A stretch of 64,000 nucleotides of DNA from contig NC_064438.1 in the NCBI RefSeq assembly GCF_023343835.1, forward strand, positions 56,258,578 to 56,322,577, read 5' to 3'. Source of the stretch: Lagopus muta (Eukaryota > Chordata > Aves > Galliformes > Phasianidae). Position numbers and translations under genes: made by a program. A model generated the notes under the pieces. That model did no database searches, had not been told where the DNA came from, and saw nothing but the letters and a program-made list of their open reading frames with translations. Numbering within the stretch: the stretch's first letter is position 1; the number at the start of each line of letters is the position of its first letter. Below, in pieces: positions 57,501 through 64,000 of this stretch.

Positions 57501-58961
57501 AGGTGTTCAAGGCCAGGTTGGATGGGGCCCTGGGCAGCCTGGGCTGCTATGAAATGGGGAGGTTGGTGGCCCTGCATTGGTGGGGGTTGGAGCTTCGTGA
57601 TCCTTGAGGTCCCTTCCAACCTGGGCCATTCTGTAATTCTGTGAAATGATGAAGCTGACGCACTGGTTCAAGTCTGATGGATTGAGGATTCACCATATGA
57701 GAGCATTGCCTGATGGTCACGTCAGAAGCTGGACAAAAGACAACATGGGCAGCTGCTAAAGCATGGGGGCTGCCCATACAACTGTCTGATACTGTCCAAG
57801 TGTGCTAAGAACTCAAGGCTCTATCAGCTCTAGAAATTCAACCCCCTGCTTGTTCATAAGATGGAAGTGCTCCTCTGCAGTGCCCTGGCTCAGCAGCAGG
57901 TCTCCCAGCAGCACTCACACACAAGGAGCAGGCTGGGGATGGCTGGCTCACTCTCCACATCTGCCTCTGCAGCCCGTGCAGACAAACTCATGGAGCCTTA
58001 AGCTTCAAGACCTTGGGATTAAACTGCAGAAAGGAGAGCAGCTGCAGCATCAGCACAGGGAATACAGACAAAAATAGGAAAATAGAAAAAATAGACAAAG
58101 AGAGGAGAAGGGGGAATGGCTTTAAAGTGAGACAGGGGAGGTTTAGGTTGGATATGAGGAGGAAGTTTTTCAGCCAGAGGGTGGTGAGGCACTGGCACAG
58201 GTTGCCCAAGGAGGCTGTGGATGCCCCATCCCTGGATGGGGATTCAAGGCCAGGCTGGCTGTGGCTCTGGGCAGCCTGGGCTGCTGGTTGGTGACCTGCA
58301 CACAGCAGGGGGTTGGAGCTGGATGAGCACTGTGCTCCTTTGCAACCCTGGCCATTCAGGATTCTATGATTCTATTCTATGTTTTTTCTTCTCACGTGTG
58401 CATGTAAGCTGTGCAGAAGTGGGATCTCAGCCACACTGATAGAGGTACATGGAAAGCCCCTTCTAAACTGCAGAGAAACAACAGGTTTTTTTTTTACATA
58501 CCCAATAAGTTCAGTCTTAATCTGTGGAAGTCTGCACATTTTTACTGCTAAGTTTAGCAGTGTTAGATTCCTCCTTGATAGCTGCAACTGGACTGACTTC
58601 CTTCAGCTAACTCTTCTTCATCATCATTCTGTGATTCTTTCCCCCACACAAAGCAGCCCCTCACCCACTCCAGCAGGTTCCAGCCCCCCTCATCCCCAAA
58701 CCTATGACATCTCACACAGCCTCACTTCTCCCACCACCCCAGCCCTCACCCCACAGCTCCATTCCCACATCGCAGCAGCCCCCCCCCCATTACCTCAGCC
58801 CAGGCCCATCACCCCACACCGGCCTCACAGGCAGCACCGGCCCCCCGCCGCACTCACCAGCCCAGCACCAGGCCGCTGGTGACGAGGAAACAAACGAACA
58901 CCACCGTGATGTAGAAAAGCGGCGAGTACTCATAGAGTGTGACGAGAAACACAGTGGCCAT
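48226..58961 (-). CDS. CGRRF1: CGRRF1, cell growth regulator with RING finger domain 1 (complete, six coding exons)
   Basis: Exons (gene order): 58858-58961, 53184-53323, 51629-51806, 51302-51449, 49888-49995, 48226-48576; together 1029 nt = 342 residues plus stop, close to the mammalian length. All junctions keep frame. Residues 13-35 form an N-terminal membrane anchor ([20 protein letters not shown]). The middle has [19 protein letters not shown] and [16 protein letters not shown]-like family motifs. A C-terminal RING spans about 274-308 (CVVC, C289, H291, C295/C298, C305/C308). The family is described as an ER-associated E3 ubiquitin ligase that restrains growth. Intron 3 is U12-type; the others have GT-AG ends. 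Divergent from GMFB, sharing its promoter. Confidence 0.95.
48577..49887 (-). other. CGRRF1: CGRRF1 intron 5
   Basis: 1311-bp GT-AG intron without recognised repeats. Contains a 16-bp perfect palindrome TATTATCATGATAATA (49375-49390). Confidence 0.85.
49888..49995 (-). CDS. CGRRF1: CGRRF1 coding exon 5
   Basis: 36 codons, phase 0 both ends: [18 protein letters not shown] ... [15 protein letters not shown], between ggtag| and |gtaagc. Confidence 0.94.
49996..51301 (-). other. CGRRF1: CGRRF1 intron 4
   Basis: 1306-bp GT-AG intron; only a CR1 tail remnant (50066-50110) is recognisable. Confidence 0.85.
50066..50110 (-). mobile_element. CR1 tail remnant
   Basis: aaaggcttgggttggaaggaac, then cctcaagctttaaagatc; about 45 bp. 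Confidence 0.65.
51302..51449 (-). CDS. CGRRF1: CGRRF1 coding exon 4
   Basis: Completes Phe, then [47 protein letters not shown], donor ATT|gtaagt. Confidence 0.93.
51450..51628 (-). other. CGRRF1: U12-type (GT-AG) intron 3 of CGRRF1, 179 bp
   Basis: Donor GTATCCTTTC (51628 downward) equals the minor-spliceosome consensus. TTCCTTGAC (branch A at 51461) matches the U12 branch site and lies 11 nt before the AG at 51451-51450. Only this AG (not the upstream one in acacaaag) restores the frame to [16 protein letters not shown]. Confidence 0.93.
51629..51806 (-). CDS. CGRRF1: CGRRF1 coding exon 3
   Basis: Acceptor ttctaaaag|AGGG; reads [19 protein letters not shown] ... [18 protein letters not shown] ... 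[10 protein letters not shown]. Ends TACTT followed by the U12-type donor GTATCCTTT; reading on into the intron would give PFFQLV-stop. Confidence 0.93.
51807..53183 (-). other. CGRRF1: CGRRF1 intron 2
   Basis: 1377-bp intron containing one reverse CR1 (52913-53022); nothing else recognised. Confidence 0.85.
52913..53022 (-). mobile_element. CR1 LINE 3' fragment
   Basis: aatcatagattcctagaatgg, ctggcttgaaaaggaccac, gggtcaccaaccagcagacc. Confidence 0.85.
53184..53323 (-). CDS. CGRRF1: CGRRF1 coding exon 2
   Basis: Acceptor tctctcag|GTTCGG completes Trp and reads [18 protein letters not shown] ... [15 protein letters not shown] ... ASVT, then donor ACAA|gtcagt. Donor is weaker than consensus but keeps phase 1. 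Confidence 0.9.
53470..53785 (+). mobile_element. CR1 LINE 3' fragment
   Basis: About 315 bp, little diverged: aaacaggagggggaatggc, gagacaggggaggtttggg, down to ccaggccatgctgtgattc. Confidence 0.92.
53921..53932 (-). promoter_or_regulatory. Candidate CTCF motif (minus orientation)
   Basis: Reverse complement is CCACTAGGGGGC, an exact CTCF core, just 3' of the CR1 at 53470. Motif match only. Confidence 0.5.
53933..55799. other. CGRRF1 intron 1, unique part
   Basis: No exon or interspersed repeat recognised. Confidence 0.5.
55800..56278 (+). mobile_element. CR1 LINE 3' fragment plus second tail
   Basis: 55800-56190 is a 390-bp sense copy (ggagaaaagaaggctgcgggg, gaggtgctggaacagctgcc, gggccattctatgattcag). 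A second tail from a different subfamily (gggttggactcgatgatctc ... gtgattctgtg) follows to 56278. Confidence 0.92.
57436..57645 (+). mobile_element. CR1 LINE 3' fragment
   Basis: Same subfamily as 55800: ttgagagtggtgaggtgctgg through ttccaacctgggccattctg. Confidence 0.92.
58100..58372 (+). mobile_element. CR1 LINE 3' fragment
   Basis: Sense copy with an altered gcaggcattcaagg segment (now ggatggggattcaaggcc, near 58235-58250), otherwise little diverged, ending in attctatgattctattctat. Confidence 0.92.
58858..58961 (-). CDS. CGRRF1: CGRRF1 coding exon 1
   Basis: [20 protein letters not shown]..., 34 codons plus two bases, then CTG|gtgagt. Encodes the N-terminal signal-anchor-like segment. 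This ATG is the first in a CpG-rich leader and matches the conserved family N-terminus. Confidence 0.93.
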
Positions 58962-59456
58962 AGGGCCGACCGGCAGACAGCCGAGCCCAGCCGCCCGCCC
59001 CACCGCACAGGCTACCGGCCAGCTGCTGCGCAGAGCGCATGCGCAAAAACCGGACGCATGCGCAGCAGCGGAGTGAAGCCGTTGCCCTCACCTTAGCGCC
59101 CTCTCCTGAGGGAACGCCTCGTTGCCATGACACCGCGCGGAGGGCGGGGCCTCGGCGTCATGGCAACAGGGCGCGGCGCGAGGACGGAGGGGGTCACGTG
59201 GCCTCACGGCACGCGCCTTTGCCCTTTCCCTTTCCTTCTCTCTCCCTGGGGGCCTTGAACCTCCTCGCTTCCCGTAGGTGGCTGCCAGTTCCCGCCCAGA
59301 CGCGGCGACGACGCTGATTGGCTGAAAGAGAGGAGCGGGGAGGGAGGGAGGAAGGCGGGGTCCTTTTGGCGCAGGCGCAGTGGGGGGGGCGGCTCAGTGA
59401 GGAGGCGGCGGGGCGGCGGCGCGGACGGTTGTGGTGTTGGCGCGCGCGCGCTCAAG
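58962..59456. promoter_or_regulatory. Bidirectional CpG-island promoter, CGRRF1/GMFB
   Basis: The two start codons are 495 bp apart, pointing outward. The interval is CpG-rich and TATA-less. It holds NRF1-type sites GCGCATGCGC (59035-59044), CGCATGCGC (59055-59063) and GCGCAGGCGC (59369-59378). It also holds the inverted repeat GTTGCCATGAC/GTCATGGCAAC (59121-59131, 59157-59167), an E-box GTCACGTGGC (59193-59202), a CCAAT box read as ATTGG (59316-59320) and a CTCF-like GCGCCCTCTCCTG (59097-59109). NRF1 and CCAAT elements are common in divergent housekeeping promoters. Confidence 0.85.
59121..59167. promoter_or_regulatory. 11-bp inverted repeat of RFX-like half-sites
   Basis: GTTGCCATGAC and its exact reverse complement GTCATGGCAAC, 25-bp spacer. 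Extending to CCG gives 14 of 15 pairs. GTTGCCATG resembles the RFX X-box half-site. Confidence 0.6.
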
Positions 59457-59459
59457 ATG
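59457..59459 (+). CDS. GMFB: GMFB coding exon 1 (start codon only)
   Basis: ctcaagATG directly followed by donor gtgaga, so the exon contributes only the initiator Met. Needed because exon 2 begins AGTGAATCT (Ser-Glu-Ser) without its own start. Confidence 0.88.
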
Positions 59460-62400
59460 GTGAGAGGAGCTCGCGCCGCCTGAGGGGGGATGGGCGGGAC
59501 GGAACGGAACTCTGTGGGGGAGCGGGGTTTGTGTACGCACAGCTCTTTCCTGCGGGTTTGGGCTCAGCCCGGGTCGGGAGTGAGGGAAACGCTCCCTTCT
59601 GAGAAGAGCTCTGAGGAGAGCGGGGCTCGTGGCGGCTGTGGGAGCCGTGGGGAAGCTTAGATCTGAGGAGAAATAAGCACAGGGGAAGGCGGTGCGCGCG
59701 CAGCGCTTGCAGCTGGAGGAGCCCCGTGACAGCAGAGCCTGAGATTTATTTTTTTTTAGTTATTTTTATTTATTCTTTTTTACGAAGTTTAAAAACGCAG
59801 CCGTTGAGGCAGGGAAACCTTAGGAATTGTTGGGTAACGGGCGAGCTGGGGCTGTGCGAGGTGTGCTGGGGGGAGGCTCAGGAAGCGGTGCGAAGATTGC
59901 GTGTGTCAGGGCAGCAACCTGCGGGTGACACCGCTGCTTCCTTCCCCATCGTCAGCGTGGTGACTCATAGGGCAGCTGGGTGCTGCTTCGGAAAGCTCAG
60001 GCTTCACAAATGTTGCTCCCGTTTTTTTAAATGCTTTGGGTTTTTTTCCGCTCGTGCTGCTGTGTGTTAGTTCCATGTAGTTGGCTTGTCAAGTCTTGAG
60101 GGAACGCCTCTTTCCTTTTAAGGGCTATATGGTGGGAAAAGAAATCCTTGATAGCAATGGAGGAGAATAGTCTTGCTTCAAGGATACAATGTAATGTGTT
60201 TATAGTTAAATGTTGGCTTTGAGGAGGGATGGGAGGACAGGAAGGCGTGTTGTTCTTAAAACCTGCTTTCACAGAATGGCTCGGGTTGGAAGGGACCTCA
60301 AGGATCATGAAGCTCCAACCCCCTGCCACCAATGCAGGGCCACCAACCTCCCTGTTTCGTAGCTGCCCAGGGCCCCATCCAACCTGGCCTTCAACACCTC
60401 CAGGGATGGACGGGGCATCACAGCCTCTCTGGGCAGCTGTTCCAGCACCTCACCACTCTCATAGCAAAGAACTTCCCCCTGACATCCAACCTCAATCTGC
60501 CCTCCTTCAGCTTCAAACCATTTCCCTTTGTCCTGCTGTTATCTCCCCTTTCAAAGAGTTTATGGGCTCCCTTATTTCCTAGTTTATGTGTTTGCGTTGA
60601 AACTTCTGACAGATGACTTCAATTCCATTTCCTAAGAGTTTAAGGGCACATATCCCTGATGTGGGGGTATTTCTCATATTAAAGAGCTTTCTCTCAGCTG
60701 TCTTTTACCTCTGCAATTCTCTCCATAGAGTGAATCTCTGGTGGTTTGTGATGTTGCTGAAGACCTGGTGGAGAAGCTGCGAAAATTCCGGTTCCGTAAA
60801 GAAACCAACAATGCTGCCATTATAAGTAAGTTTAAAACGTGACTGGCGAAGATCCTACGATCCTGTGGGATCCTTTCTTTCTTCCCATGTAGTTTTGTTG
60901 CTGTAACAGGTAGGTGTGAGCCAAGAGTCTGCGTCTGCCATGAACTGGAGTACCTCCTGTTCTGCCTCTCTACTGCTAACAGTAGAGAAATACAGTTTTA
61001 ATGACATGAGGCCTGACTTCATCTGCTCTTGGTAGAGCTTTTTGTGGTTAGTTGTGGCTCAGAGTTCATGGCTGGTTTTAAAATGATAGCAAAAACAATT
61101 TGTGGCATGGTCACTTCAAGTTTGTAAATTGTATAGCTTTTAAGCGTGATATTTTTGACCCTTGTCTCTGAAATCTGCAAAATACATGTTGCTGTGAACA
61201 GCCTTTGTATAACTTCTGACTTCAGGGATTTTGTGAAACCACGGGGCAGGGTCTGAAGAAATAATGGAGGGATGAGAAATGTACTTGTGAGGTGCTGTTA
61301 AAAAGCTTTATGCTTATGTTGTGTAAATCACTTGAAAGCTGATCTGTGTTTTATTTTGATTTGTAGTGAAAATCGACAAGGATAAGCAGTTGGTGGTACT
61401 GGATGAGGAGCATGAGGTTTGTTAAATGCATTGTAAATAAGAGTATCTTCAGCCTGCAATGTATTGTTGTCTCTAAGGTACTGCCTTAGTTTCAAATTGT
61501 TATCAAACTCTTAATCTAATTTGGGTCATGAGCTGGTTTGAATGCATGGACACTGCATGTAAAGCACGGTGCTATTAATAGTGGGACTGCAGAAGTGAGG
61601 AACTGTGAGGCAACAAATGAATTGCACGAAATATAAGTTAATTCAAAGCTGTGATGGTGCAACTCTGTATGTAAGAGGCATCTTTGGCACCTGCTGGCTT
61701 CTCAAAGACTTCTCTGCAGCGTTTCCACGTGGATCTGCATATGGATCTCTGAACTCATCTGCTGTCAGTTAGAAGCTAGGCTTGCTAGTCCTTTGCAGCT
61801 CCTAAATTTGATAGATGGCATAGTAAGCCACCTTGTAGTATTTCTTAATGGTACATGGGGCAAAATTAAATCCTCCAAAGGGATTGGAGCGTTACTTGTA
61901 GCTCTTACACCCTAGAATGTAGCAGCTGACATAGTGTTTGAGTGGCGTGGGGGCTCTTGGCTCGTTCAAGGAGCAATTTCTCAAGGAGCACCTTTTATGT
62001 AGCTGGTTTTTAACAGATACTTATTTGGATGTGCTTGTTTACCTCTGTTTAGTGCTGGAGTTACAAAAGCACTGTAGCTGCCAGCTTATCCAACTAGAGC
62101 CAGAATGTTTTCCAAAGTCATTATGCCTAAACTAGGGATGATTATTCACATTAATGTTTAGTCACAGAAATCTATTAGCAGACAAGCTTTCTTAAGCTGT
62201 TCTAGTAATCTGTGTTAGAGATAGTTATCAATTAAACTGGAGACGTGCATCTAACTTGCAGGTGTTTTACCACCCCACTGTTGTGCTTTAGCCTTCACAG
62301 TATACCTTCAAGTGCAAGTTCATTTGTTCAAATACTGCTTGTGTTTAATGTTACCAGGGTATTTCCCCAGATGAGCTAAAAGATGAGCTGCCTGAGAGAC

Positions 62401-64000
62401 AACCTCGATATCCTTTTGTGCTGCTGGCATTTGTCTTAGTCGCTCCTGGAAGCTGTTCAAATGTTTAAAGTTGAACTTCACCTTTTTAGGCTAATGCTTG
62501 CCTGTGATGAGACTTCAGTAACACTTGATTTGTGAGGCATCTTGGGGATCAGTTCTCGTGATGCACCGAATGATTGTCCCAGTTCTTAAAGACTTAAAGC
62601 AGCGACTGATGCAGTTAGGCCTTTCCCAAGGCTTTATTTCCTTCTAAGCTACGCTCTGTAACATTTAGGGAAGTGCTGTTAACTCACAAAGCGAGTAAAG
62701 TGCTCCAGTTTTGCATGTTGCTACTTGCACATACAGAATGCTGCCCGTGTAACTTAGGATCTGTTTTGGTGCTTTCCTAGCATGTGCTCCTTGCTGTTTT
62801 GCTGCAGGTACTGCTGCTGGGAGCACTTTAGGCTGGGATGTAGGGGAGAATCCCTGTGCTGAAAGAGGGGAGGGGGGAAAAAAAAATAAAAGAAGTGAGT
62901 TGGCAGAGGGAAGTGAACTTTTTCTAACTAAACAAAACAAGAGGGGTACTTAAGCTACAGCTGATGAAAATATCTGTTTTCAGTATCCTTCAGAGCTGGC
63001 TTGCAACGTTCCAGGTGCCATTCTGAAGCTTTACTTCCATGACTGTCGTGCAGTAGGAGGCTGTAAAGCTGGAGTTCAAACTCCTGAGAGCACCTGGAGC
63101 AGTGAAGTGCTCGGTCTGTGCTGAAGGGATGTGGCTTTCAGCAGGCCAGCAACAAGACAGCCATGAGTGTGAGAAGTCTTCTTACCAAAGTGGAGGAGGA
63201 ATCTTTGCAATGAAAGGGGTGTTTTTAGCTGTCTGATCTTCAACAGCTGTAAGGAGGCAACCTTCACCATCTGGCTGCTGTAGAGGTTGGTAAAAACAGG
63301 CAGGCCCAGTTCTGAAAGTCAAATATGGAAGTGAAAGTAAAAGACAGACTGCAAATTTGAGTCATCTTCTAGAACGCGTGACTTCTTTGTGCCTGTATCA
63401 AGCTCTGATCATTGATGATTATCCTCACCAAATAATTGGTTTCTCAGTTTCCTTAACCTCAGAAAAAACATTTATTGTGTACAGTTACAAGTATCAGCAT
63501 GAAGATGGAAGAGTTTCTTATCCGCTGTGCTTTATCTTCTCCAGTCCTGTTGGTGAGTGAACCCTGTGAATGGCAGCTACTGCGTGCTGTGAATGTGGGA
63601 ATGTTCTTTGCAATAGAGGAGAAGATAAGTGCTTAATGCTCAAATATTGGTGCAAGGCTGAATTTATTTATGCCTGTGCTGCAATCAGGGCACTATAAAG
63701 CTGTGGCACTGCCTGGAGACCTTTTTTGGAAGAGAGGAATCTCTAGTATATTAACTCTGTCCTCACCATCTGCTCGAGGCAATTGTTAACGCTCCCATCT
63801 GCCCAGATCTCCCTACTTGCTAGAGGTTTTCACTGCATTTGGGGTTCACATTTAAGACACTTAGGTAGTAGAGTGCAAATATGCTTTGTTGTCCATTTCT
63901 GAAGGCTGAAATGAAATATCAGTTTCCTGCATAGGTGTCCAAATGGTGTGTTTTTCTGACTGGGCCCACTGTGATCTCAGTGGCACGCTCTGTAACGTTT
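59457..64000 (+). CDS. GMFB: GMFB, glia maturation factor beta (5' five coding exons; partial)
   Basis: Exons: 59457-59459 (Met only), 60729-60825, 61367-61416, 62358-62407, 63470-63552. Joined in frame they give residues 1-94 and the first base of codon 95, out of about 142: [93 protein letters not shown]. This is an ADF-homology protein of the GMF class; family members bind Arp2/3 and promote actin debranching rather than binding actin filaments. The remaining exon(s) with the C-terminal helix lie past 64000. Intron 4 is an AT-AC U12 intron. Ubiquitous-type promoter shared with CGRRF1. Confidence 0.96.
59460..60728 (+). other. GMFB: GMFB intron 1
   Basis: 1269 bp, GT-AG; the first ~400 bp continue the CpG island. 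Contains a reverse CR1 at 60271-60562. Confidence 0.88.
60271..60562 (-). mobile_element. CR1 LINE 3' fragment
   Basis: cacagaatggctcgggttgg, acacctccagggatggacg, ctctgggcagctgttccagc; same subfamily as 2050, 55800 and 57436. Confidence 0.92.
60729..60825 (+). CDS. GMFB: GMFB coding exon 2
   Basis: Acceptor tccatag|AGTGAA; the next AG would create an immediate stop. 32 codons (SESLVV...NNAAII) plus one base, donor A|gtaagt. Confidence 0.95.
61367..61416 (+). CDS. GMFB: GMFB coding exon 3
   Basis: Acceptor tttgtag|TGAAAATC completes Met; [16 protein letters not shown]; donor GAG|gtttgt (weak +3 to +5). Confidence 0.93.
62358..62407 (+). CDS. GMFB: GMFB coding exon 4
   Basis: Acceptor taccag|[22 protein letters not shown] plus CG. 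The next bases are ATATCCTTT, not GT. Confidence 0.95.
62408..63469 (+). other. GMFB: U12-type AT-AC intron 4 of GMFB
   Basis: 1062 bp. Donor ATATCCTTTT is an exact minor-class AT-AC donor. TTTCCTTAAC (63448-63457) is a perfect U12 branch site, with its A 13 nt before the terminal AC (63468-63469). CG+A restores Arg and FIVYSYKYQ. Using the nearby AG (63461-63462) would break frame. Confidence 0.96.
63470..63552 (+). CDS. GMFB: GMFB coding exon 5
   Basis: Completes Arg, then 27 codons [18 protein letters not shown]...SSPV plus G, donor G|gtgagt. Core beta-strands of the ADF-H fold. Confidence 0.96.
63553..64000 (+). other. GMFB: GMFB intron 5 (start)
   Basis: Intronic; no exon or repeat recognised before the window ends. 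Confidence 0.8.

Follow-up and report, generated by a model that had tools for sequence, protein, structure and literature searches.

The intron between exons 4 and 5 of the gene for glia maturation factor beta (GMFB) in Lagopus muta raises the question of which splice sites join the two exons and which spliceosome would use them. The original prediction, made from the letters of a 64,000-nucleotide stretch of contig NC_064438.1 (the window), placed an AT-AC intron of the minor spliceosome at this point, and we examined this assignment by motif scoring, by enumeration of the possible joins and by comparison with the published human gene.

Judged from its predicted protein, the gene in the window is GMFB rather than the glia maturation factor gamma gene (GMFG), and it is an intact member of the ADF/cofilin family. 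Among PDB entries, residues 4-95 matched best to the solved glia maturation factor beta of entry 1v6f (184.1 bits), which is presumably the mouse protein, and four GMFG chains followed with lower scores (155.8-156.3 bits); the sixth and last match was 5ynr (68.3 bits). The Pfam family Cofilin_ADF was also recognized (5e-21, 95 residues). Once exons 6 and 7 were added from the neighbouring stretch of the genome, a frame of 142 residues was open throughout. The features of GMFB and of its neighbour are summarized in Table 1.

Table 1. Positions of the features of GMFB and of the adjacent CGRRF1-like gene, numbered from the first letter of the window
Feature	Position	Strand	Basis or remark
GMFB exon 1 (the ATG is its whole coding part)	59457..59459	+	join/frame analysis
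GMFB exon 2	60729..60825	+	GT-AG introns on both sides
GMFB exon 3	61367..61416	+	join/frame analysis
GMFB exon 4, ending in CAACCTCG	62358..62407	+	join/frame analysis
GMFB intron 4, AT-AC, predicted U12-type, 1062 nt	62408..63469	+	motifs, frame, human counterpart
Predicted U12-type 5' splice site ATATCCTTT	62408..62416	+	0/9 mismatches to RTATCCTTT
Predicted U12-type branch motif TTCCTTAAC	63449..63457	+	0/9 mismatches to TTCCTTRAY
Decoy AG past the branch point, 7 nt upstream of exon 5	63461..63462	+	probably unused
GMFB exon 5, starting with ATTTATTGTG	63470..63552	+	join/frame analysis
GMFB exon 6	65017-65090 (window-like numbering)		outside window, same contig
GMFB exon 7	from 67487 (window-like numbering)		outside window, same contig
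CGRRF1-like coding exon 1	58961-58858	-	
CGRRF1-like coding exon 2	53323-53184	-	
CGRRF1-like coding exon 3	51806-51629	-	
CGRRF1-like intron 3, putative minor-type GT-AG, 179 nt	51628-51450	-	motif scoring
CGRRF1-like coding exon 4	51449-51302	-	
CGRRF1-like coding exon 5	49995-49888	-	
CGRRF1-like coding exon 6	48576-48227	-	ends one base short of the stop codon end

The donor of a U12-type intron is recognized first by U11 and subsequently by U6atac snRNA, and pairing of U12 snRNA with the branch motif makes the branch A bulge; the consensus sequences used for scoring were RTATCCTTT for the donor and TTCCTTRAY for the branch. Intron 4 of GMFB begins with ATATCCTTTT and ends with TTCCTTAACCTCAGAAAAAAC, and both of its motifs agree perfectly with the consensus. 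The predicted branch A is at position 63456, 13 nt before exon 5, the terminal AC is at 63468-63469, and position +5 of the donor is C, not G. By eye, and unscored, no polypyrimidine tract was seen from the branch motif to the exon (CTCAGAAAAAAC), and the stretch just upstream of the branch motif (TTTCTCAGTTTCC) was pyrimidine-rich in part. Against RTATCCTTT, the donors of introns 1, 2, 3 and 5 show seven, four, five and seven mismatches, respectively; against TTCCTTRAY, the best branch-like sites of introns 1, 2 and 3 show three each. The donor, branch motif, terminal AC and exon 5 start all lie exactly where they had been predicted. Taken together with the 13-nt spacing, the protein join described below and the human counterpart, which has been termed a minor intron (PMC7244321), the perfect motifs bear out the assignment to the minor-intron class, and intron 4 of bird GMFB is almost certainly a U12-type intron of the AT-AC subtype that has been conserved.

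Given the dinucleotide make-up of the window, any one site matches RTATCCTTT perfectly with p 4.9e-6, and p is 2.5e-4 for a TTCCTTRAY without mismatch whose A stands 8-20 nt upstream of a particular exon. On both strands of the window (128 kb of strand), two perfect donor motifs were observed against 0.63 expected, and four perfect branch motifs against 2.45 expected, both from dinucleotides. In the whole genome, an assembly of 1.03 billion bases, both strands together contain 24,175 exact copies of RTATCCTTT, compared with 35,364 of the reversed control; because the motif is so common, and rarer than its reversed control, a lone donor motif carries little weight. What carries weight is that a single coding gap is bordered by the two motifs, one at either edge. 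A scan of the window for RNA families gave no match at the gathering score. Inside intron 4 there is also a U12-donor-like sequence, GTATCCTTCA (62983-62992, + strand); about 0.008 copies of its 8-mer GTATCCTT would be expected in a sequence as long as this intron, so that it is mildly unlikely by chance. As an alternative donor it would form, with the AC end, a disfavoured GT-AC pair, and we read it as probably a chance decoy.

To place the junction, we combined 50 ends of exon 4 (last base 62390-62439) with 60 starts of exon 5 (first base 63430-63489). Exactly three joins in this grid gave the GMFB protein, namely 62407/63470 (AT-AC), 62408/63471 (TA-CA) and 62409/63472 (AT-AT), the latter two being the first cut moved along by one and two bases, respectively. 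The AT-AC join connects ...CAACCTCG to ATTTATTG... and reads QPRFIV, identical to the solved GMFB, and we chose it among the three equal joins because it alone belongs to a known intron class. The statement in the original prediction that AT-AC ends give the only in-frame join is thus too strong as worded, since the two slid joins give the same protein and many GT-AG or GC-AG joins keep an open frame with an altered protein; what stands is that AT-AC is the sole known class among the joins that restore the protein. The same enumeration bears on the reading that this is an ordinary GT-AG intron with an exon boundary differing in birds. Many GT-AG or GC-AG pairs near the junction do keep the frame open, as a wider listing showed (donors after 62358-62479, acceptors before 63380-63519), but the protein is altered in these joins, and none of the GT-AG or GC-AG joins in the 50 x 60 grid restores the protein sequence of the solved GMFB, so that we regard this reading as extremely improbable.

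Nor do the AT-AC ends by themselves specify the spliceosome, as introns with these termini that are removed by the major spliceosome exist (PMC2831892), for example in some sodium-channel genes. However, all sodium-channel AT-AC introns of that kind have a G at donor position +5 (PMC2831892), where GMFB intron 4 has C, and the latter carries the full U12 donor and branch motif in addition to the minor label of its human counterpart (PMC7244321); removal by the major spliceosome therefore has next to no chance of being correct. For the preferred, U12-type reading, we propose that the donor ATATCCTTT would be read by U11 and then by U6atac snRNA, and that U12 snRNA would pair with TTCCTTAAC, bulging the branch A. 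The first acceptable 3' end past the branch A would then be the AC, 13 nt on, with the AG at 6 nt being too near.

This AG, a decoy 7 nt upstream of the acceptor, is indeed where it had been predicted, and ends 6 nt downstream of the predicted branch A. In some of the transcripts it could in principle be the 3' end of an AT-AG intron, as a regulated or erroneous event giving a frameshifted product. The human site has an AG in the corresponding position, 6 nt upstream of the exon (PMC7244321). The choice of the 3' site in U12-type introns is error-prone (PMC3584512), and a little splicing to the AG may therefore occur. Against its use, only 6 nt separate the AG from the branch A, pairs of the AT-AG kind are disfavoured and the optimum distance from branch to acceptor is 11-13 nt (PMC3584512), within which the AC falls; we infer from these points that the AC is used and the AG skipped. 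In bird GMFB, moreover, splicing to the AG would add 7 nt, shift the frame and lead to a stop. The AG and the following A-run are together one base longer in the bird than in human, and therefore use of the human AG, 6 nt from the exon, would keep the frame, whereas use of the bird AG would shift it. Use of the AG as an acceptor in part of the transcripts thus seems very unlikely, and the AC remains the preferred 3' end.

Since the other introns seen in the gene are of the GT-AG type, every transcript of GMFB should require the major as well as the minor spliceosome. The dependence of GMFB on the snRNPs of the minor spliceosome, and the effect on its output, would follow from the intron class, as the original prediction had proposed. 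If intron 4 were retained, a stop would be met 19 codons past the junction codon, and therefore retained transcripts should make no GMFB.

A second putative minor-type intron was found in the neighbouring gene on the minus strand, which we take, by its resemblance to the human protein, to be CGRRF1; the Pfam RING finger zf-C3HC4_3 in its protein (1.5e-13) agrees with this name. The two genes are arranged head to head, with their ATGs 496 bp apart (region 58858-59460). Intron 3 of the CGRRF1-like gene (GTATCCTTTC ... TTCCTTGACACAAAGAAAG) looks like a U12-type GT-AG intron from its motifs, having no mismatch among nine positions in either the donor GTATCCTTT or the branch motif TTCCTTGAC and a distance of 11 nt from the branch A to the exon. 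The other four introns of this gene have five to seven donor mismatches and two to four at the best branch-like site. The only two perfect minor donors of the window are those of this intron and of GMFB intron 4, and among the introns scored (four complete introns and one further donor in GMFB, and five introns in the CGRRF1-like gene) there is one apparent U12-type intron per gene.

We found no mention of CGRRF1 with the minor spliceosome in open-licence papers (U12DB, IAOD and MIDB were outside this scope and may well list the CGRRF1 intron); the only co-mention of CGRRF1 and U12 was in a paper on the newt lens, with one mention of each term. A mention of minor-intron genes sharing a bidirectional promoter was likewise not found in open-licence papers. 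It might be speculated that the pair is a jointly transcribed unit in which both outputs would depend on the minor spliceosome and would respond differently to AT-AC-specific factors such as CENATAC, but we consider this unlikely. With its GT-AG minor-type intron, the divergent neighbour lets the two subtypes be compared side by side in a natural setting.

Depletion of CENATAC in human cells affected 92% of the A-type and 24% of the G-type minor introns (PMC8280824). GMFB is not named in the main text of that paper, but intron 4, as an AT-AC minor intron, belongs to the group described there as most sensitive to CENATAC loss. The view in the original prediction that AT-AC termini are the rarest class is misleading, because they form the second commonest minor subtype, accounting in the IAOD table for 18% of the chicken set of U12-type introns and for 26% of the human set (PMC7367187). 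For chicken, 381 of the 398 introns in U12DB were classified alike by the IAOD paper's own method (PMC7367187).

The original prediction had also called for a comparison with the same position in human GMFB, and the only paper found in the open-licence literature on GMFB as a gene with a minor or U12-type intron supplied it (PMC7244321, eLife 2020). No open-licence paper linking glia maturation factor, under its full name, to a U12 intron was found, and in broader searches neither the 20 papers listed of 42 contained this name nor the 10 listed of 51 the symbol GMFB. In PMC7244321, the class of human GMFB intron 4 is stated as minor, and exons 4 and 5 with this intron were placed in minigenes; as a point of caution, where the major sites leading to exon 3 of Srsf10 had been exchanged for the GMFB minor sites, that exon was hardly included. 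The printed human sites are TCGatatcc at the 5' end and ttctttaacttgagaaaaacCTT at the 3' end. Our comparison was made by eye from these letters, with human as the only ortholog compared. The exon pair 4-5, the exon end TCG, the donor start ATATCC and the AC end are common to human and bird, the branch regions are nearly identical, and an AG stands just before an A-run in both. The differences are in the branch motif (human TTCTTTAAC, bird TTCCTTAAC), in the distance from the branch A to the exon (12 nt in the printed human letters, 13 nt in the bird) and in the start of exon 5 (human CTT, bird ATT). At the matching outer exon edges, the human sites are gccagGGC (end of intron 3) and TTGgtaagt (start of intron 5), and the bird sites are CCAG/GGT and TTG/GTGAGT, with the slash marking the exon border.

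A minor intron in GMFB is thus already known from the published human gene, and the bird case is real but ordinary; what the raw sequence adds is that this intron has been kept in a bird, its AT-AC subtype included, and that it is a clean case of an intron that cannot be placed by the GT-AG rule alone. Compared with AT-AC introns of the U12 type in general, GMFB intron 4 is alike in donor, branch motif, spacing and termini, with no difference in the features tested. With the U2-type AT-AC introns of the sodium-channel genes it has the AT-AC termini in common, but unlike them it has no G at +5 and carries the full U12 motifs.
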